A DNA stretch of 64,000 bases. Source: Hoylesella loescheii. GTDB taxonomy: Bacteria > Bacteroidota > Bacteroidia > Bacteroidales > Bacteroidaceae. The stretch spans positions 1 through 64,000 of the forward strand of contig JADYUK010000001.1 in the NCBI GenBank assembly GCA_021531755.1, in the 5' to 3' direction. Positions 5,672-63,084 of the stretch are shown piece by piece. The notes beneath the pieces were generated by a model, which did no database searches, was not told the origin of the DNA, and saw nothing but the letters and a program-made list of their open reading frames with translations. Each line of letters opens with the position of its first letter. Within the stretch, counting starts at the first letter, position 1. The translations under genes were made by a program, and so were the position numbers.

Positions 5672-5717
5672 TACCGCATACTATCGGATGAGGAGACGGG
5701 CCAGAGGCAAGGAGTTA

Positions 5718-5797
5718 TCCATCTCCCCCCTGCACCAACGCCATGCATGGCAAGTAGTAATCCATCTCTCTCCTGCACCAACGCCAGGCATGGCAAG
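5718..5797 (+). repeat. Two copies of a 37-bp direct repeat
   Basis: Copies at 5718-5754 and 5761-5797 share tccatct and ctgcaccaacgcca, then gcatggcaag, with three or four mismatches and a 6-bp spacer. They lie between the convergent EamA gene and queH. Confidence 0.85.
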
Positions 5798-6549: not shown

Positions 6550-6687
6550 TCTTGATTACTTCTTTTTTTTTTCTTTCTTAAAAACCAGACAGTGAGGGTG
6601 AGAAGGTACACCATCGGGGTGAATAGCCACACCGTGCCCACTCTTCCTGGATAAGTGTTGGTGTGGGGGGCGACGGGGAGGGTGGCA

Positions 6688-6776
6688 TGCTGTTCTTTCC
6701 TGTATGTGGCGTTATTCCCACATGCTGTTCCTTCCTGCATTCGGCGTTATTCCCACATGTGTATTCTTTTCCCACA
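6688..6776 (+). repeat. 35-bp tandem repeat, two full copies plus a partial
   Basis: Copies at 6688-6722 and 6723-6757 both read tgctgtt-ttcctg and end ggcgttattcccaca; a shortened third copy (tgtgtattcttttcccaca) follows at 6758-6776. Confidence 0.85.
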
Positions 6777-9636: not shown

Positions 9637-9731
9637 ATATGTTCCGCCCGACAGTGAGGTATGAAACTGGCTCGTGCAAAATCGTACAATATACCCCCAA
9701 TTTTCGCTCCACTCTTGATTATCCATCCATT

Positions 9732-9911
9732 TATTCAAGCGAGGCGAAGGAGAGGGGAGCTTTCAGGTAAGCAACTTCGTCCCCTCACACTCATTTAATC
9801 GAGGCGAAGGAGAGGGGAGCTTTCAGAAAAGCAACTCCCTCTCCTCCCATTCGTTCAAGCGAGGCGAAGGGCGACGCGCCTCTCAGAAAAGCAACTCCTT
9901 CCCCTCGCATT
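9732..9911 (+). repeat. 60-bp tandem repeat, three copies
   Basis: Copies start at 9732, 9792 and 9852 with an exact 60-base period. Each contains gaggcgaagg and tcag-aagcaact; copies 1 and 2 share gagaggggagctttcag exactly, while copy 3 differs in the middle (gcgacgcgcc). The array lies between the 6S-like RNA terminator and a degenerate minus-strand frame. Confidence 0.9.
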
Positions 9912-9955: not shown

Positions 9956-10480
9956 TTACTTGGCCGTGACGGTGGCTGCAGTACTGCTGGTGATGACAGT
10001 CGGGTTGATGAAGAATACATCATTCACATTAATATCCCATGCGGTGGGTTTGGCTGTACCAGACTTGACAGATATACTGCCCTTGCCAAGATTCGGGGCT
10101 GTGAGGAGACCGAGGGAGTTTGAGACGTTGCTGGCAAACTTATATGTGCAGATTGCCTCGCCAGAGGTGTTACAGAGGGTATAGTAGTTTGCCGAAGAAT
10201 AGCTTGATGGCGACGAACCGAGATAATAGCCTTGTGTAGCAGTGCCTATGCTCGATGTGCCGCTGCTGCCCATCCTTCCACCGGCGGTGACAGCGATGCC
10301 GCCCGTCACAACGATGTATGAGCCAAGTAAGCTTGACTTCGTCTTCCTCCTTCGCGCCTCGGCAATATTCAAGCAAGCTTGACTATTGCTCTCGGCTTGG
10401 CGTCGGTTGACTCTGCTATCGTTTGTACGATATTTCGGGATAGCCCAAGCAAGGAGGAAAAAGACAAAGTCAAAACTCAC
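9956..10480 (-). pseudogene. Secreted-protein-like frame fused to repeat DNA (probable remnant)
   Basis: A minus-strand frame with a GTG start at 10480 encodes 174 residues. The first third (to about residue 50) is translated from a copy of the dispersed palindromic repeat (10331-10411) and is not protein-like. The rest, from LGSYIVVTGGIAVTAGG onwards, is rich in Gly, Ser, Thr and Ala with a regular core (CTYKFASNVSNSLG, WDINVNDVFFINPTVI) and looks like part of a secreted or surface protein. I recognise no family. The best reading is a gene fragment whose 5' part was replaced by repeat DNA; a small real gene is possible. Confidence 0.35.
10331..10411 (-). repeat. Dispersed REP-like palindromic repeat (copy near hflX)
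   Basis: The block shares cgtcttc-tccttcgcgcctcgg and ctctcggcttg-cgtc with the block at 42498-42580. Its centre is an imperfect palindrome (gcaata-ttcaagc-aa-gcttgac-tattgc). Confidence 0.65.
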
Positions 10481-11906: not shown

Positions 11907-12008
11907 GTGCTCACTCCACCCCCCGTTGATAGAGTGTGGGCTGGAATGGGATGGTGCCCCCCTCCGTTGGTACAGTGAGGGCTGGAATGGGATGGTGCTC
12001 ACTCCTGG
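11907..12008 (+). repeat. Tandem repeat of 41-47 bp, two copies plus a partial
   Basis: Copies at 11907-11953 and 11954-11994 share gtgc, cccgttg-ta-agtg-gggctggaatgggatg; the block gtgctcactcct at 11995-12006 begins a third. The array fills the gap between hflX and the DUF4954 gene. Confidence 0.85.
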
Positions 12009-15475: not shown

Positions 15476-15725
15476 TTCACACGGATGTCCACGGGAAATC
15501 ACGGGGAAGTTTTCTTTCACGCAAGGTGTTATCACACACGGAAAAGTCACGGGTTTCTCTTTTCACGAATTATCTTTTCTCTCACGACTTATCGAATTCT
15601 CGAATATGTTCTTTGGATATATCCCGTGGCAAAATATTCATCCGTGACTTTCCGTGTGATAAATTGATTCGATAATTAGTGAAAAGAGAACCCTGGGACT
15701 TTCCCGTGATATACCGTGTGATATA
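15476..15725. repeat. Nested inverted repeats of the ccgtgtg family
   Basis: The block at about 15529-15556 (tatcacacacggaaaag then tcacggg) is the reverse complement of 15641-15662 (ccgtgactttccgtgtgata). The block around 15546-15568 (gggtttctcttttcac) pairs with 15680-15697 (gtgaaaagagaaccctg). Together they could form a large stem-loop of about 200 bases. The left end (cttcacacggatgtcc) matches the dispersed family seen near 27032, 29305, 42351 and 46651. Confidence 0.75.
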
Positions 15726-17767: not shown

Positions 17768-18190
17768 CATCATAGAGAGGGCGCACAGAGCGGCCGTGAA
17801 TGTCAGTCTGTGCAGACTCTCGTACCCTCATGGACTATACTGCCTGTGGGTATGTGCGCTGATTAACTTATTGGGGTGGTGTATTGGTTAGATCGGGATA
17901 CTCATCAATTAAGAATCGGAAACCGGATATGCCACGTGATTCGATGGCGGGCCATTATGGTGGCGTCGCACGTCGTGGGCTCATCGAGACTTGTCCCTTG
18001 TCCCATGTCCTCTGCCGCTGCTAAAGCTGTATAGCCGATGGATTACAGAGATACGTGACATCCAGATATATTATATCTCTAGGAGTTTCATCACAATCAC
18101 AATACATCCCCCATTTTTTCGACATATACTTTGTAAACATCATCCGGCAGACATTTCCTTTATCATGGAACTGTCTGCCGGAATTGTTTT
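17768..18190 (+). ncRNA. Candidate non-coding RNA of about 420 bases
   Basis: The transcript is defined by the orphan promoter and a strong terminator. Near its 5' end gcgcaca (17781-17787) pairs with tgtgcgc (17853-17859), enclosing two smaller hairpins (agtct/agact at about 17804-17817 and taccc/gggta at about 17823-17852), a three-way-junction shape. The longest plausible frames inside are 31-residue ones (for example 17929-18024) with no recognisable product. It matches no RNA family I know: it lacks the tmRNA, SRP and RNase P hallmarks. It could instead be a decayed gene leader. Confidence 0.4.
18143..18190 (+). terminator. Intrinsic terminator
   Basis: Arms 18143-18153 and 18172-18182 (tccggcagaca) are perfect over 11 bases, with an extra ttcc/ggaa pairing inside, followed by attgtttt. 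Confidence 0.85.
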
Positions 18191-26829: not shown

Positions 26830-26939
26830 CCCTGCCGCGCTACTGGCTGACACCTTTATGCCGAATAGCATCCAGCCTCCCTCTGATATATGAAACCTGG
26901 AAGACAGTACCTTGTACCCACGAACAGAAGGAGAAGCCA

Positions 26940-26997
26940 ACGTTTCCGTTAAGTCAGAAGACCCAAAAGAGCTTGCTCGCTTTGGCTTGGTGAGGAT
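26940..26997 (+). repeat. Dispersed REP-like repeat (copy between tonB and the prenyl synthase)
   Basis: The block reads cgtttccgttaagtcaga and gagcttgctcgctt, matching the family at 35635, 37844, 44769 and 42580 with several mismatches. Confidence 0.6.
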
Positions 26998-27031
26998 AGG
27001 TCGGGAGAAAATCCAATTTATGACAAAGAAA

Positions 27032-27068
27032 ATCCGTGATACTCCGTGACCATCCGTGTGAAAACTTG
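27032..27068 (+). repeat. Copy of the actccgtgaccatccgtgtg repeat
   Basis: It matches the block at 46757-46790 almost exactly (gatactccgtgaccatccg then tgtgaaaacttg) and the block at 29389-29424 with two differences. It ends 30 bases before the prenyl synthase start. Confidence 0.8.
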
Positions 27069-33070: not shown

Positions 33071-35632
33071 ATGCCCAAAAGATTAATTTTATCTCTCATG
33101 ATGCTGATTATGACAGCACTGGGAGCTTATGCGCAAAGGATAACAGGCGTCGTGATTGACGCACACACAGGTGACAGCATCCCTCTTGCAGGTGTTGTCT
33201 ACCGCACACATCATGTCATGGTGGCGGCAGACTCTAGAGGCCGTTTCTCTATCGAGCGCCATAATGGATGGAAACTCTTCTTCTCGGCCATGGGATACAA
33301 GACAGAGAGCATCCTTGTCAGCGAGAAGACCCCAAACAAGCTCACTGTGAAACTGAAGCCAGACACGAAACAGCTTCAGGAAGTGGTCGTTAAGGCAAAG
33401 CGCTCAAAATACTCACGCAAGAACAACCCCGCTGTCGAGCTGATGAAGAGAGTCATAGCAGCGAAGAAACGCACTGACCTCGACAACAACGACTACTACG
33501 AATACTACAAATACCAGAAGCTCACACTCGCCAAGAACAATGTCACACCCGATGATGTGGCAGAGCAGAGAGAGAAAGGCAACAAGGACTGGCTCATAGA
33601 CCAGATTGAGGTATGCCCCATGAACGGAAAGCTCATCTGCCCAATACAGATCAGCGAGACCGTAAGCCGCAAGGTCTACCGCAAAGACCCTAAGAGGGAG
33701 AAGACAACAGTCCTCGGAGAAAGCTCGACAGGTGTCGCCAACCTTGTGGAGACAGCCGGCAACATCCTTGATGCGTCAATGAAGGATATCTTCACCGATG
33801 TCGATATCTACGACGACCAGATACGCCTGCTGCAGTTCCCTTTCACATCGCCTATCGGCAAGGACGCCATAGACTTCTACCGCTTCTATATAACTGACAC
33901 ATGCTATATAGACAAAGACAAGTGTATCGGTCTAAGCTTCGTCCCCAACAACCAGCAGGACTTCGGTTTCAGAGGCGATATATGGGTGCTCTGCGACAGC
34001 ACACTGCATGTCAGGAAAGTGTCCCTGACAATACCAAAGAAGAGCGATGTCAACTTTGTCGAGAACATGAAGATAGAGCAGGAGTATATCAAGCTCCCCA
34101 ACGGACAGTGGGTGCTCGATACAGACAATATGCTCGTCGAGATGAAAATAAACCGTATGATGAAGAACGCCGCCATCATACGATCAACAAAACTCTCAGA
34201 ATACAAGTTCGACCCGATCTCCAAGCATAACTTCCGTGGCACGGCGACTTTCGTCAGGGATGCCGACGCACGCAACCGAGGCAAAGACTTCTGGCAGAGA
34301 TTCCGTACAGTAGAGCTGACAAAGTCTGAATCGTCAATGGGCGAGTTCACCAAGCGCTTCGCCAATATCCCCGGCATGAAGACTATGCTCTTTATCCTCA
34401 AGGCGTTCATGAACAACTATGTCAGCACGACGACAAGCGACTCCATCCCCTCGAAGTTTGATATAGGCCCTGTCAACACCATCGTCAACAAGAACATTGT
34501 CGACGGATGGAGATTCCGCATGTCAGGCCGTACGACAGCTGCGCTCAACCCACACCTCTTCTGGGACGGATACCTGGCGCGGGGAGTTTCGAGCAACAAG
34601 TGGTACTACTCCAACCACATCACTTATGCGTTCAACAAGAAGAACAACGAGCCATGGGAGTTCCCGATACGCCAGCTCTCGTTGCTGACAGAGTATGACA
34701 TCATGTCGCCGTCAGACAAATATCTCCTCACGAACAAGGATAACCTCTTCATGGCGTTCAAGACACGTGACATCGATATGATGTACTTCTACAACCGCCA
34801 GGAGCTTGAGTTCAAGTATGAGACCCTTGCAGGATTCGCCACGACGATAGGACTGAAGGCTGAGGGGATAAAGGGCGCGGCGAAGATGGAGTTCATAAAG
34901 GCTGATGGCACACCATGGAACCATGAGGTGCGCACGACTGAGGCACACCTCGGTTTCCGTTATGCACCAGGAGAGACATTCATCAACACCAAACAGCGCC
35001 GTTATCCCATCAACCTCGACGCGCCGATATTCTCTATCGACCATAACATGGCATTCGACGGAGTGCTCGGCGGTAAGTATAAGAGCAACTATACTGAGGC
35101 AAGCATATACAAGAGATTCTGGCTCAACTCATGGGGAAAGCTCGATATCTATGTCTCTGCCGGAGCACAATGGGAGAAAGTGCCGTTCCCTTTGCTCATC
35201 ATGCCCAAGGTGAACCTGTCATGGTTAGCACAGCCAGGAACATACACCTTCCAGCTCATGAACAATATGGAGTTCCTGACTGACCGCTATGCAATGTGGC
35301 ATGTCTCATGGGACCTTAACGGTAAGCTCTTCAACCGCATTCCCCTGCTGAAGATGCTCAAATGGAGAGAGTATATCAGTGTGCGCGGAATGGTAGGCAA
35401 GCTGACCGACAAGAATAACCCATTCCTCGAGCAGAACAGGAATGACGACATCCTCTTCCAGTTCCCCGAGGGATGTAACGTCATGGACAACAAGCCATAC
35501 GTGGAGATTGCAGCCGGCATACACAATATCTTCAAGTTCCTTGAGGTGGACTATATACACCGTATGACATACAAAGGCCTTGACACTGCGATAAAGAATG
35601 GTGTCCGCTTCGCCATAAACATGTCATTCTAA
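33071..35632 (+). CDS. DUF5686 / carboxypeptidase-regulatory-like outer-membrane protein
   Basis: The 853-residue protein has a signal peptide (LILSLMMLIMTALGAYAQ). A CarboxypepD_reg-like domain follows (RITGVVIDAHTGDSIPLAGV to LTVKLKPDTKQLQEVVVKAK, residues about 21-110). The remainder matches DUF5686, ending in beta-strand-rich sequence with a terminal Phe (GVRFAINMSF), typical of an outer-membrane barrel. Function is unknown; the family is common in Bacteroidota and often sits near surface-protein genes. The ATG at 33071 is chosen because the signal peptide follows directly. Confidence 0.85.
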   Translation: MPKRLILSLMMLIMTALGAYAQRITGVVIDAHTGDSIPLAGVVYRTHHVMVAADSRGRFSIERHNGWKLFFSAMGYKTESILVSEKTPNKLTVKLKPDTKQLQEVVVKAKRSKYSRKNNPAVELMKRVIAAKKRTDLDNNDYYEYYKYQKLTLAKNNVTPDDVAEQREKGNKDWLIDQIEVCPMNGKLICPIQISETVSRKVYRKDPKREKTTVLGESSTGVANLVETAGNILDASMKDIFTDVDIYDDQIRLLQFPFTSPIGKDAIDFYRFYITDTCYIDKDKCIGLSFVPNNQQDFGFRGDIWVLCDSTLHVRKVSLTIPKKSDVNFVENMKIEQEYIKLPNGQWVLDTDNMLVEMKINRMMKNAAIIRSTKLSEYKFDPISKHNFRGTATFVRDADARNRGKDFWQRFRTVELTKSESSMGEFTKRFANIPGMKTMLFILKAFMNNYVSTTTSDSIPSKFDIGPVNTIVNKNIVDGWRFRMSGRTTAALNPHLFWDGYLARGVSSNKWYYSNHITYAFNKKNNEPWEFPIRQLSLLTEYDIMSPSDKYLLTNKDNLFMAFKTRDIDMMYFYNRQELEFKYETLAGFATTIGLKAEGIKGAAKMEFIKADGTPWNHEVRTTEAHLGFRYAPGETFINTKQRRYPINLDAPIFSIDHNMAFDGVLGGKYKSNYTEASIYKRFWLNSWGKLDIYVSAGAQWEKVPFPLLIMPKVNLSWLAQPGTYTFQLMNNMEFLTDRYAMWHVSWDLNGKLFNRIPLLKMLKWREYISVRGMVGKLTDKNNPFLEQNRNDDILFQFPEGCNVMDNKPYVEIAAGIHNIFKFLEVDYIHRMTYKGLDTAIKNGVRFAINMSF

Positions 35633-35634
35633 AC

Positions 35635-35697
35635 TTTTCGTTAAGCCAGATGAGCTGAGCCCAAGCTTGCTTGAAGGCTCTGCCATGGCGAGAAAAG
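35635..35697 (+). repeat. Dispersed REP-like repeat (copy after the DUF5686 gene)
   Basis: The block reads cgttaagccagatgagc, then aagcttgcttgaaggctc and tgccatggcgagaaaa. It begins right after the DUF5686 stop. It is the best match to the copy inside the M3 peptidase gene. Confidence 0.85.
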
Positions 35698-35746
35698 GTC
35701 GGATGAAGTTCTCCCTCCCCCCTTAACTGCAAACATTATCCCCATC

Positions 35747-37414: not shown

Positions 37415-37752
37415 TAAGGATGAAAGAAGATTATAAAGAATTATTACAACAGAATTGTAATGTAAGTTAAAATATATCTGTGGTATATGGGCTATATCAC
37501 AGTTTTTTTGTATTTTTGCGTATTGATATAGCAAGTGCGTGCATGGCACGGAAAAGTGAGAGGACAATTCGTCCAGCCCAATGTGTCGGGTAAAAGACAG
37601 CACATCGGGACATGACCAGAATGCGATGCCATATCCACAGTGTGTAGAGCCCGGTGTAATCCTGTGGAAAATGATAAATACCGCATGAGGCACACTATAT
37701 ATACGCTTGGGAAAATAACCTGACAGAGCTAATCATCACAGACAACAGAATC
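37415..37752. other. Leader region of the M3 peptidase gene
   Basis: A TATTTTTG box at 37511-37518 is promoter-like but lacks a good -33 TTG. About 230 bases of leader follow without a recognisable element. No gene is supported. Confidence 0.5.
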
Positions 37753-40011
37753 ATGACAGACAGCAATATACAACTAACAAATGAAGAGAATACAGCAACC
37801 CCATACCGTGATGATGAGCGGCATGGGGATAGCATGAACAACGATTTCGTTAAGCCAGATGAGCAGAGCTCATGCTTGCTTGAAAGCTCTGCCATGGCGA
37901 GAAATCACACTTCCAAGAACCCTTTTATGCTCCCGTATGATACGCCACACAATGCAGTCCCCTTTAGCATTATCAGGATGGAGCACTACGAGGAAGCTAT
38001 CATTGAGGGCATCAGGAGGGAGAAGGAGGAACTGCAAGAGATACTCAGCAATCCAGAACCACCGACATTCGACAATACCGTCACTGTCGACTGGGGCGAG
38101 GAGCGTAACTATTATTACGGTCTCCTTTACCGCGTCATGACCGTCATGGGCAATCTCCTCTCTGCAGAGACGAACGATGAGATGGAGGCGTTGTCCATAA
38201 AGATGCAGCCTCTGCTTACACAGCATGCCAATGACATGAGTCTCGACCCCAAGCTTTTCAGCCGTATAAAGGAAGTCTACGACAATTACCGGAATGGCAA
38301 GACGGAGCGTGAGTACACTCTTGAGGAGAGGAAAGTGCTCAAGGACAGCTATGAGGGATTTGTGAGAGCAGGTGCTTTGCTCGATGATGATGACAAGAAG
38401 AGACTGGGCCAGCTGAGAGAGGAGATATCCATGCTAGGGCTGCGTTTCTCTCAAAATCTATTGAAGGAGCAGAAGAACTTCTCGCTCCATATAACCAATG
38501 AGGATGACCTCGGCGGACTGCCAGAGCGTGTCGTGGCGGCCGCGGCTTTGGCTGCAAGGGAGAGAGAGGGGGCGGTGAAAGAGGATGGCGTCGGGAACGA
38601 TGGATATGGATGGCTCTTCACACTCGACTATCCCTCTTATTCGCCTTTCATGACATACTCTACCCGGCGTGAGCTGAGACGTAAGATGTACATGGCCTTC
38701 TCGACAGTCTGTATGCACGATAATGAGGAGAATAACATCGAGATATGCAAGAAGATTGTCAATCTGCGCACAGAGATAGTCCAGCTTCTGGGATATGATA
38801 CATTTGCGGACTATGTCCTCGTAGAGAGCATGGCGTCATCCGTGGAGAATGTCTATGCTCTTTTTGACCAGCTCATCAAGGCGTATAAGCCGACTGCGCT
38901 GAGAGAGACCGAGGAGATTAAGAAGATGGCAAGGAGAATGGAGGGCGAGGATTTCTGTATGGAGCCATGGGACATGTCGTTCTATGCACACAAGCTGCAG
39001 ATGGAACGCTACAACATCGACAGCGAGGTTGTCAGGCCATATTTCAAGCTTGACAATGTTATCAACGGAGTCTTCTCACTCGCCACGACGCTCTACGGCA
39101 TCACATTCAAGGAGAACAAGGAAATACCTGTCTATCATCCCGATGTGAAGGCATACGAGGTCTACGACGAGAATGGAGCATACCTCGCCATCCTATATGC
39201 AGATTTCTATCCGCGCAAGGGCAAGCACTGCGGTGCGTGGATGACAGAATATAAGAGCCAATGTATAAAGCGGAATGGTGAGAACGTGCGTCCGCATGTG
39301 TCGCTTGTGACAAACTTCACGAAACCAACAGCGGAGAAGCCGGCGCTGCTGTCGCTTGGCGAGGTTGAGACTTTCCTGCACGAGTTCGGGCATACCCTCC
39401 ATGGGATTTTCTCTAACACACATTACGCATGTTTGTCGGGTACATCCGTCTACCGTGACTTCGTCGAACTGCCATCACAGTTCATGGAGAATTATGCAGT
39501 GGAGCCAGATTTCCTGCGCACTTTCGCCATGCATTATGAGACAGGAGAAGTGATGCCAGACGATCTGATACAGCGCATACGTGACTCGCGCAACTACAAT
39601 GTGGCAAGGGGATGTCTACGCCAGGTCAGCTACGGAATGCTCGATATGGCTTACCATACACTGAAGGAGAAGTTTGAGGGAGACCTCATAAAGTTCGAGA
39701 AGAACGCATGGTTGGAGGCAATCGTCGACAAACAGCTTCCTGACACCTGTATGACGGTACAGTTCTCACACATCATGGACGGAGGATACAGCGCCAGTTA
39801 TTACAGCTACAAATGGGCAGAGGTGCTCGATGCCGACGCATTCGCAGTCTTCCGCAAAGAGGGCATATTCAACCGTGAGACAGCACGGCGTTTCCGCGAT
39901 TGCATCCTCTCACGCGGTGGCACAGAGCATCCCATGACTCTCTACAAACGCTTCAAGGGCTCTGAGCCTACAATAGAGGCTCTCATGGAGCGCAATGGTA
40001 TAAAGCCCTGA
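37753..40011 (+). CDS. M3 family metallopeptidase (oligopeptidase / dipeptidyl carboxypeptidase)
   Basis: The 752-residue frame encodes a zinc metallopeptidase. The zinc site is ETFLHEFGHTLHGIF (HEFGH at residues 543-547), with the downstream Glu in RDFVELPSQFMENYA. The typical family start, NPFMLPYDTPHNAVPF, appears only at about residue 56. The 55 preceding residues are unusual: residues 31-52 (DFVKPDEQSSCL to MARNH) are translated from a copy of the dispersed REP-like repeat. An ATG inside that repeat at 37894 would give a 705-residue protein closer to the family's length and may be the real start. No signal peptide is seen, so a cytoplasmic peptidase is expected. Confidence 0.93.
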   Translation: MTDSNIQLTNEENTATPYRDDERHGDSMNNDFVKPDEQSSCLLESSAMARNHTSKNPFMLPYDTPHNAVPFSIIRMEHYEEAIIEGIRREKEELQEILSNPEPPTFDNTVTVDWGEERNYYYGLLYRVMTVMGNLLSAETNDEMEALSIKMQPLLTQHANDMSLDPKLFSRIKEVYDNYRNGKTEREYTLEERKVLKDSYEGFVRAGALLDDDDKKRLGQLREEISMLGLRFSQNLLKEQKNFSLHITNEDDLGGLPERVVAAAALAAREREGAVKEDGVGNDGYGWLFTLDYPSYSPFMTYSTRRELRRKMYMAFSTVCMHDNEENNIEICKKIVNLRTEIVQLLGYDTFADYVLVESMASSVENVYALFDQLIKAYKPTALRETEEIKKMARRMEGEDFCMEPWDMSFYAHKLQMERYNIDSEVVRPYFKLDNVINGVFSLATTLYGITFKENKEIPVYHPDVKAYEVYDENGAYLAILYADFYPRKGKHCGAWMTEYKSQCIKRNGENVRPHVSLVTNFTKPTAEKPALLSLGEVETFLHEFGHTLHGIFSNTHYACLSGTSVYRDFVELPSQFMENYAVEPDFLRTFAMHYETGEVMPDDLIQRIRDSRNYNVARGCLRQVSYGMLDMAYHTLKEKFEGDLIKFEKNAWLEAIVDKQLPDTCMTVQFSHIMDGGYSASYYSYKWAEVLDADAFAVFRKEGIFNRETARRFRDCILSRGGTEHPMTLYKRFKGSEPTIEALMERNGIKP
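37844..37903 (+). repeat. REP-like repeat copy inside the M3 peptidase frame
   Basis: The block reads cgttaagccagatgagcaga, catgcttgcttgaaagctc and tgccatggcgagaaa, nearly identical to 35635-35697. It contains the inverted pair gcagagct/agctctgc. It is in frame with the peptidase gene. Confidence 0.85.
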
Positions 40012-42497: not shown

Positions 42498-42637
42498 GTG
42501 CGATTTGACGTTCGTCTTCTTCCTTCGCGCCTCGGGATAGTCTGAGTAAACTCAGCCTCTCCTCTCGGCTTGTCGTCAGTTCTCGCCATGGCATAGTCTG
42601 AGCAAGCTCAGCCTCTGCTTATCTGGCTTAACGAAAT
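42498..42637 (-). repeat. Two adjacent REP-like units in tandem
   Basis: Unit 1 (42498-42580) contains cttccttcgcgcctcggg, tagtctgagtaaactcagcc and ctcggcttgtcg. Unit 2 (42581-42637) contains tctcgccatggc, tagtctgagcaagctcagcc and ctggcttaacgaaa. Read on the minus strand, unit 2 aligns with the copies at 35635 and 37844. The core tctgag-n4-ctcag is palindromic. Confidence 0.8.
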
Positions 42638-42664
42638 CGTCCAACACTAATGGCATGACATATT

Positions 42665-44745: not shown

Positions 44746-44768
44746 TGATGACGACAAGGTGAAGTCAA

Positions 44769-44830
44769 CGTTTTCGTCAAGTCAGATGAGCAGAAGCTTA
44801 GCTTTCTCACAGTATGCCATGGCGATAAAA
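44769..44830 (+). repeat. Dispersed REP-like repeat (copy after the membrane protein)
   Basis: The block reads cgttttcgtcaagtcagatgagcag split around aagcttagcttt and ends atgccatggcgataaaa. It follows the gene end by 24 bases. Confidence 0.75.
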
Positions 44831-45000
44831 CGAAGCCAACCGACTTTTAACGACGGTTAAAAGTGGAGATTTGCGAGCTATGAGCTTGGCGTAGTAGGCG
44901 AGATTAAAGGCGATAGCATCGTTTCGGGAGATTGATGCGGTGAAAATGTGAAATCGTGAAAATGTGAAAACATCATCTCACATGGGGGGAATGCTCACTA

Positions 45001-62354: not shown

Positions 62355-62633
62355 CATATAATTTCTTACATAACACTCTGATATCCTTCCTATTTAGTAT
62401 AAATTAACTCAATTTCCGAGGTTTTGAGATACATCATGCCCATTTCATGCGTCATCGTGACAGTTAAGCGAATACAGACTGTTGCATAAGAATAACAACT
62501 TTTCAAAGAAGGCTTCGGATGCCTATGGTTACCATCCTTGAGGATAAGATTTATCTGAATATGACAAACTTAACATACCTGAGATTCGGAAATCCATTAG
62601 TACCGCAAACCCATAGGACGACAACCGATGACT

Positions 62634-62744
62634 CCGCCTTCCGAGGAAATGAAATCCATGATGGTCAATGCCACCTTCCGAGGAAATGAAATCCATGATG
62701 GTCAAAGCCGCCTTTCGAGGAAATGAAATCCATGATGGTCAAAG
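62634..62744 (+). repeat. 37-bp tandem repeat, three copies
   Basis: Copies at 62634-62670, 62671-62707 and 62708-62744 share cgaggaaatgaaatccatga and tggtcaa exactly and differ at three positions in all. There are no spacers, so this is not a CRISPR array. Confidence 0.92.
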
Positions 62745-63084
62745 CCGTCGGAGAGCGCAACGATATCGATTGCTCATTCGATACTGTCAAGAAAGTATAT
62801 CGAGCCAATGATATATGGGCCAAGATTACATATACACCACGATGCCGAAAGGGGATGCGCTACTTCGTCAAGGACGTGATGAAGTTCCTGATTGTACTTT
62901 ATCTTGTCCTTACCGAATTAAGGCGGATTGTCATTGTTGTTGTCACTATGAGTGACTACGTCTGCCATCCTCTGCTTGTGACGAAATATTATTACAGCAG
63001 ACCCTGTTTTAACAAACGATGGCTCATCCCGACTTCTTCGAGATGAGCCATTTTCAGTACCATTACAATCTGTTCTTGTATTGG

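Follow-up and report, generated by a model that had tools for sequence, protein, structure and literature searches.

Mobile palindromes lying in frame inside genes of unrelated function have been described as Rickettsia palindromic elements (RPEs) (PMC10969869; PMC3733652). One of these, a 2013 survey, places repeats along ORFs, slightly more than 10% of them at the end and a larger share N-terminally (PMC3733652). It also describes GTAG and CGTC REPs of 20-40 bp, dispersed and partly in arrays, some of which supply stop codons at ORF ends, and it doubts that palindromes annotated at gene starts are translated, owing to start misannotation (PMC3733652). In Prevotella intermedia and P. nigrescens, the available description of PINSR gives a repeat of 188 bp in 177 and 184 copies, said to be without terminal inverted repeats or coding sequence (PMC4755523).

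The repeat analysed here resembles RPEs, as described there, in that its palindromic fold is kept across copies, as judged from covariation, and in that it lies in frame in genes of unrelated function, six at the N-terminus and four at the C-terminus. It differs from them in phylum and in size (units of 57-78 nt here vs about 150 bp for RPEs), and also in that all ten in-frame genes carry the copy at the N- or C-terminus. With REPs it shares dispersed palindromes, partly arrayed, some of them at ORF ends with a stop codon; yet its core of about 62-70 nt exceeds 20-40 bp, and it shows neither a constant terminal tag nor a link to Y1_Tnp. The MITEs of Porphyromonas gingivalis, a related member of the phylum, are by description likewise short inverted-repeat elements, whereas the unit here is asymmetric with several kinds of tail, and no cognate insertion sequence was recognised for it in a transposase search that covered Y1_Tnp. 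Like PINSR, it is a dispersed, high-copy intergenic repeat of Prevotella, but its units are shorter (57-78 nt) and palindromic, which sets it apart from PINSR as described. No paper on this repeat in Prevotella was found in the literature searched, some queries being covered in part. It appears to be a new repeat family, with a way of working that, by analogy, is already known from Rickettsia.

The repeat copy in the M3 peptidase gene

The window, meaning the whole stretch of 64,000 bases that was analysed, comprises bases 1-64000 of contig 11 in a genome of 3,301,356 bases and 72 contigs. The features around the peptidase start are:

37753..40011, + strand: M3 family oligopeptidase of 752 aa whose N-terminus holds the repeat, with a predicted folded domain from about residue 54
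37753..37755, + strand: most likely start codon, 5' of the repeat (MTDSNI match; 29 stop-free codons; P(unpaired) 0.47)
37834..37836, + strand: second candidate start, from sequence, also 5' of the repeat (P(unpaired) 0.36)
37840..37917, + strand: inserted mobile unit, with core 37840-37907 and tail 37908-37917, residues 30-55 (alignment A2; covariance model 79.6 bits)
37894..37896, + strand: third candidate start, from sequence, the in-frame ATG within the repeat (P(unpaired) 0.08)

The frame is open throughout and matches Peptidase_M3 of Pfam over residues 299-749 (E 6.2e-130); its HEFGH at residues 543-547 is invariant in 30 sequences, and relatives at 60-68% identity are mostly records named Prevotella. 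The genome encodes another M3 peptidase (C7:34508-36565), which shares 40% identity with this one.

The initial annotation had claimed that a dispersed palindromic repeat is carried in frame in the N-terminus of this protein, and this is borne out: 37845-37904 is 93% identical to 35636-35695 over 60 bases without gaps, the frame is open, and the family stands far above chance. The family covariance model places the core of the M3 copy at 37840-37907 (E 2.8e-19), and the inserted unit, with its 10-nt tail, measures 78 nt when its boundaries are drawn by the AAC rule of the family. The repeat had been assigned residues 31-52; its in-frame location stands, and by the model its extent is slightly wider (residues 30-55). 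The in-frame ATG at 37894 that had been noted inside it is present as codon 48. The unit sits immediately 5' of a conserved NPF motif. For the M3 copy the hairpin z-score is -3.89 on the plus and -2.30 on the minus strand; for the copy after the upstream gene the values are -2.06 and -1.81.

At the M3 start, no family match (E<=0.01) was found in 109 orthologue loci (L010-L118, including some duplicates), the sole match at this threshold lying in L079, about 4.6 kb away from the gene. In the comparison of orthologues that the initial annotation had proposed, none of 103 distinct orthologues matches the N-terminal length of 55 residues (longest 48). In a structure model based on 30 sequences, residues 1-53 have pLDDT <50, partly reflecting a thin alignment in which few sequences reach far N-terminal, and a confident fold is predicted from about residue 54. 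Solved relatives such as Dcp and oligopeptidase A match the peptidase from about residue 45-53, Dcp from 53.

Copy number, fold and ends of the repeat family

Using one 76-base copy as query, blastn found 54 places in the genome, and a covariance model (R1) found at least 127 places in the 3.3 Mb at E<=1e-3, a lower bound as 150 of 2368 candidates were scored. At the repeat, Rfam gave no match at gathering scores. In the window, the further copies are:

26939..27000, + strand: diverged intergenic repeat copy (50.5 bits)
35631..35698, + strand: repeat copy overlapping the stop codon of the preceding gene, a putative DUF5686 gene whose frame ends at 35632 (76.0 bits)
42576..42641, - strand: intergenic repeat copy (72.8 bits)
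44767..44832, + strand: intergenic repeat copy (71.7 bits)

The repeat is an imperfect hairpin of about 62-70 nt followed by a tail of about 10-15 nt. The hairpin model has 22 pairs, 20 from RNAalifold and two outer ones added by hand, and was examined on alignment A2, which holds 36 of the 54 blastn copies after omission of partial, hybrid and repeated ones. In these 36 copies 94.5% of cells pair. Changes on both sides occur in 9 of the 22 pairs, and covariation is 0.172 against 0.080 (sd 0.007) for shuffled alignments, none of 500 being as high; slid versions of the hairpin score far lower, with the structure derived from the same alignment. The palindromic fold is thus kept by paired changes in its stems.

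Terminal inverted repeats are present, as the ends CGTTTTC and GAAAACG pair in 91.7% of cells (helix 1). A typical copy starts with AACGTTTTCG, ends with GAGAAAACG and continues with one of several short tails, which were recognised by pattern as GGcgaaGCC (23 copies), CTTTTAAG (15), TGTnTTTATACG (9) and TCGGATaAAATCC (9), the tail not being recognised in 71 of 127. The left end starts with AAC in 99 of the 127 copies, and AAC stands right after the recognised tail in 45 of 56. In a comparison of flanks for a target site duplication, five bases are equal on both sides in 32 of these 56, and many of the 32 are tandem neighbours. Copies form head-to-tail arrays with 36 neighbour spacings of 61-84 nt. 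The AACGATTTC start is found in 13 of 127 copies, including the N-terminal copies of the M3, GH2 (both; L215:1684-1817) and B3/4 (L219) genes; the M3 copy combines an outer stem of this type with the inner hairpin of C9 copies in a mosaic-like manner.

Copies in genes across the genome

Most copies (108 of 127) overlap no ORF above the codon-score cut. The 19 that do comprise seven N-terminal in-frame copies, four C-terminal ones, one that breaks a transposase gene and seven that are taken as upstream or are ambiguous. Named by Pfam, the six genes holding the seven in-frame N-terminal copies encode the M3 peptidase, a GH2 protein (two copies in tandem), a B3/4 protein, a GDSL hydrolase, an EEP (endonuclease/exonuclease/phosphatase-family) protein, whose copy is in antisense orientation, and a DUF6298 protein. 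The four C-terminal copies carry the stop codon of QueC, a sigma-70 family protein, a CvfB-like protein and a 379-aa protein, the last with four codons only.

With boundaries set by the AAC rule, the units in the six N-terminal genes measure 78, 144, 72, 75, 57 and 75 nt, and in each gene the reading frame is preserved across the joined flanks. Lengths are thus multiples of three in 6/6 genic units vs 16/35 other tandem spacings, a figure shaped by ascertainment since the genic copies were recognised by being in frame. The five genes other than M3 carry the unit in frame within the first seven codons, and the unit-free flanks read, by eye, as ordinary-looking N-termini: MKIIVSEEI (B3/4), MKKQTLLLSALFLCLVISMTAQ, MRTFFLGTALLMTVSTIHAQ, MTMTRKTFFFVTLFLSALYTYGQ and MNILTKKCPLSLTVV. 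The clearest case is the B3/4 gene, in which ATG is followed by 24 inserted codons and then by KIIVSEEI; orthologues turned up in 25 of 40 genomes, with an ATG 1-2 codons 5' of the KIIVSEEI motif in 24 of 26 loci (exceptions L323 and L338). Orthologues were read for M3, B3/4, EEP and GDSL, with signal peptides judged by eye, and those of EEP (26 loci) and GDSL (12 loci, one partial) mostly have short N-termini with a hydrophobic stretch. No in-frame ATG is found in the unit of B3/4, which has TTG only, or in that of DUF6298. A repeat-borne start is possible in EEP, where an ATG within the repeat would yield a good signal peptide (MKTLLSALFLCLVISMTAQ).

Over 116 copies, the three forward frames are open in 84 (the frame used in M3), 86 (the next) and 2; a stop-free repeat is a cheap property and weak evidence for coding. 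A repeat-borne start as a general rule was also considered, as mechanical ORF starts fall in the repeat before AXE1, ETF, peptide deformylase, C69 peptidase and glutamine amidotransferase genes, all named by Pfam, and before a gene presumably encoding alanyl-tRNA synthetase. These starts were rejected, an ordinary-looking start being seen by eye downstream in each, and the repeat was taken to lie just upstream. PhoH (L236) is ambiguous between a repeat-borne and a downstream start.

The start codon of the M3 peptidase

Either the repeat has been exapted as coding sequence, according to the initial annotation, or its own ATG is the true start. We favour coding behind an upstream start, and read-through of the repeat from 37753 or 37834 is probable, because 29 stop-free codons precede the repeat, MTDSNI finds a match, the ATG at 37894 is buried in the hairpin and five other genes offer parallels. 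The word "exapted" is not supported, as the added residues show no sign of use and are predicted to be disordered. That a mobile palindromic element shapes the start region of M3 is upheld, its own ATG being the less likely start.

Between the upstream candidates, the start is probably 37753. MTDSNI, read from there, is also the start of orthologue L032 and matches L060 at 5/6 positions, whereas the other two candidates reach at most 3/6; the match is statistically weak, since several permutations of TDSNI reach 4/6 in more orthologues. In the M3 frame the 29 pre-repeat codons have a codon score of +2.6 and no stop, against -3.2 (3 stops) and -14.9 (5 stops) in the other frames. The score was trained on the 29 long ORFs of this window, M3 included, and gene windows have a mean of 7.2 (sd 3.3) in frame and of -9.7 (sd 4.9) one frame further on, so that +2.6 lies 1.4 sd below the gene-window mean; it is only slightly higher than the +0.2 of the 87 nt 5' of 37753 in the same frame, which hold 2 stops. 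By local folding, the AUG is unpaired with probability 0.47 at 37753, 0.36 at 37834 and 0.08 at 37894, compared with 0.60-0.62 at the starts of three other genes in the window. From 37753 to NPF the M3 protein has 55 residues with the insert and 29 without it, while in 103 distinct orthologues the first in-frame ATG lies at a median of 11 residues, <=30 in 99 and at most 48. A tail of 29 residues would thus be longer than that of most orthologues, which counts against 37753.

This length speaks for a start at 37894, from which the protein would begin MARNHTSKNPF with only 8 residues before NPF, near the orthologue median, the element supplying the start codon and everything upstream being leader. 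Copies in A2 mostly keep ATG-GCG-AGA, some TTG-GCG-AGA, in the 3' arm, the EEP gene offers a parallel, and the 2013 survey holds many REPs at annotated N-termini to be extragenic, with translation perhaps starting downstream (PMC3733652). Still, that ATG lies within the stem and 29 stop-free codons stand upstream of it; moreover, the B3/4 gene has a native-looking ATG right before a unit with TTG only, and the DUF6298 unit lacks an in-frame ATG, so we regard a start at 37894 as unlikely. A start at 37834 would make 37753-37833 the leader and still have the repeat translated. It would place the unit right behind a native ATGAAC, mirroring B3/4; the unit-free flanks then read ATGAAC followed by AACCCTTTT, giving MNNPF(ML), and some orthologues begin 1-3 residues before NPF. 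Against this stand the stop-free stretch upstream and the MTDSNI match, and we consider it rather improbable. The codon score of the leader and the internal ATG of EEP somewhat favour these rivals of 37753. The published doubt about misannotated N-termini does apply to M3 and is better answered by B3/4.

Mobility and distribution

On sequence evidence the repeat family is mobile, because one copy breaks a DUF772 transposase gene (L124) that is continuous in two relatives: the frame stops in the repeat and resumes after it in another frame, and L189 and L190, from two other genomes, read through the insertion site unbroken. Its presence is patchy, in 115 of 299 genomes of the genus, the present one included (E<=1e-8; 17 candidates scored in each). 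When 102 of 108 matches in other genomes were checked, four rows (three ORFs) overlapped an ORF above the score cut, and only the 333-aa ORF of L380 resembled a real gene interrupted or extended; the loci checked were the best-scoring copies, which biases them to young ones.

Similar sequences, 80-90% identical to part of the query, occur in 25 plasmid records, of which 24 are from Bacteroides, Parabacteroides or Phocaeicola, and the covariance model confirmed the two that were inspected with it (85.2 and 65.2 bits). In a 98-kb Bacteroides plasmid (L434:4005-4069; NZ_CP072215.1) the copy occupies the gap that precedes mobC and relaxase-domain genes. PLSDB types all 25 plasmids as non-mobilizable, although this one has a relaxase-domain gene. 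Plasmids are a possible route of spread between genera. Phage records gave one match, 84% identical over 66% of the query, and blastn (E<=1e-3) found one place resembling the repeat unit in a 568-kb Prevotella nigrescens replicon.

Proposed explanation

On our reading of these data, Prevotella probably harbours the repeat as a small, non-autonomous mobile element, one 78-nt unit of which would have landed in frame in the N-terminal tail of M3, directly before NPF. The native start at 37753 would have been kept, so that the ribosome reads through the hairpin and 26 residues are added outside the folded domain. The insertion may have been tolerated because the unit preserves the frame and the tail is predicted to be floppy; we infer both translation from 37753 and neutrality. 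The same event would have befallen the N-terminus of five other genes and the C-terminus of four. In-frame copies probably add a floppy tail to proteins.

As palindromes that are dispersed and mostly intergenic, in a genome with one Y1_Tnp gene (380 aa), the copies might be taken for REPs moved by a RAYT (Y1) transposase. Over the 299 genomes there is, however, no association, Y1_Tnp being found in 60 of 115 genomes with the repeat vs 96 of 184 without it (odds ratio 1.0), and no repeat match was found in 3252 bases around the genome's own Y1 gene (L139). Neither GTAG nor CGTC recurs as a constant tag: in 116 copies, exact occurrences no more than 8 nt from an end numbered 1 for GTAG, 0 for CTAC, 11 for CGTC and 18 for GACG (end counts). 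RAYT mobilisation, supported neither by the association nor by the own Y1 locus, was therefore rejected as very improbable. A hairpin whose main role is at the RNA level (as mRNA stabiliser, attenuator or terminator), with coding incidental, is compatible with the readings of the start and could account for the 108 of 127 copies that overlap no ORF above the codon-score cut, the conserved pairing and folding as RNA on both strands. We doubt this explanation, since copies differ in orientation, in tandem number and in how far they lie from genes, the repeat is patchily distributed among species, and conserved pairing is equally expected if a mobilising enzyme recognises DNA hairpins. Perhaps, and again improbably, the repeat is a hairpin of gut Bacteroidota, spread between genera by plasmids and inserted before AAC by a mover other than RAYT, in which the genic copies that survive lie after the start codon and ahead of the first hydrophobic or folded segment. 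It would then be a portable N-terminal tag that lengthens signal-peptide n-regions in secreted enzymes (GH2, GDSL, EEP, DUF6298) and thereby changes their export or expression.

A non-autonomous element carried in frame, as we propose, gives several clean cases in one genome for asking if palindromes at gene starts are translated, chiefly that of B3/4 with the unit between a native-looking ATG and codon 2. Predicted start codons and signal peptides in repeat-rich Prevotella genomes may be wrong, and the repeat may serve as a model family for seeking the enzyme that moves it. A resemblance of the repeat to integron attC sites was set aside as likely chance.

Other observations

The repeat shares its first two bases with the stop codon of the gene ending at 35632, which resembles the C-terminal cases in the QueC, sigma-70 and CvfB-like genes. 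A long gap, 37415-37752, lies 5' of the peptidase, with a possible Bacteroidota-type promoter, TATTTTTG, near 37510 and a leader of about 230 nt; Rfam gave no match in this gap. The transposase family of which the repeat breaks a member on another contig has a remnant at 62496-63005 of the window (76-78% identity). A second dispersed family, TCCGTGATACTCCGTGACCATCCGTGTGAA and its reverse, occurs in the window at 27033, 29390, 42356 and 46755 and at 15476, 29464 and 46651, and a related stretch has more matches on other contigs. A third palindromic family, whose CAAGCTTG centre is similar, is found at 10338-10408 and 42511-42581 of the window and at L141:1760-1852, where it seems nested in a copy of the first family with CCAA at both sides. 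Short tandem arrays lie at 5706-5791 (units of 43 bp), 6686-6755 (35), 9728-9907 (60), 11916-11997 (41) and 62634-62746 (37). Rfam identified the following RNAs in the window:

17877-18115: Bacteroidales-1 (6S-like) RNA
46210-45810: tmRNA
60852-60470: RNase P RNA
63155-63085: FopS sRNA
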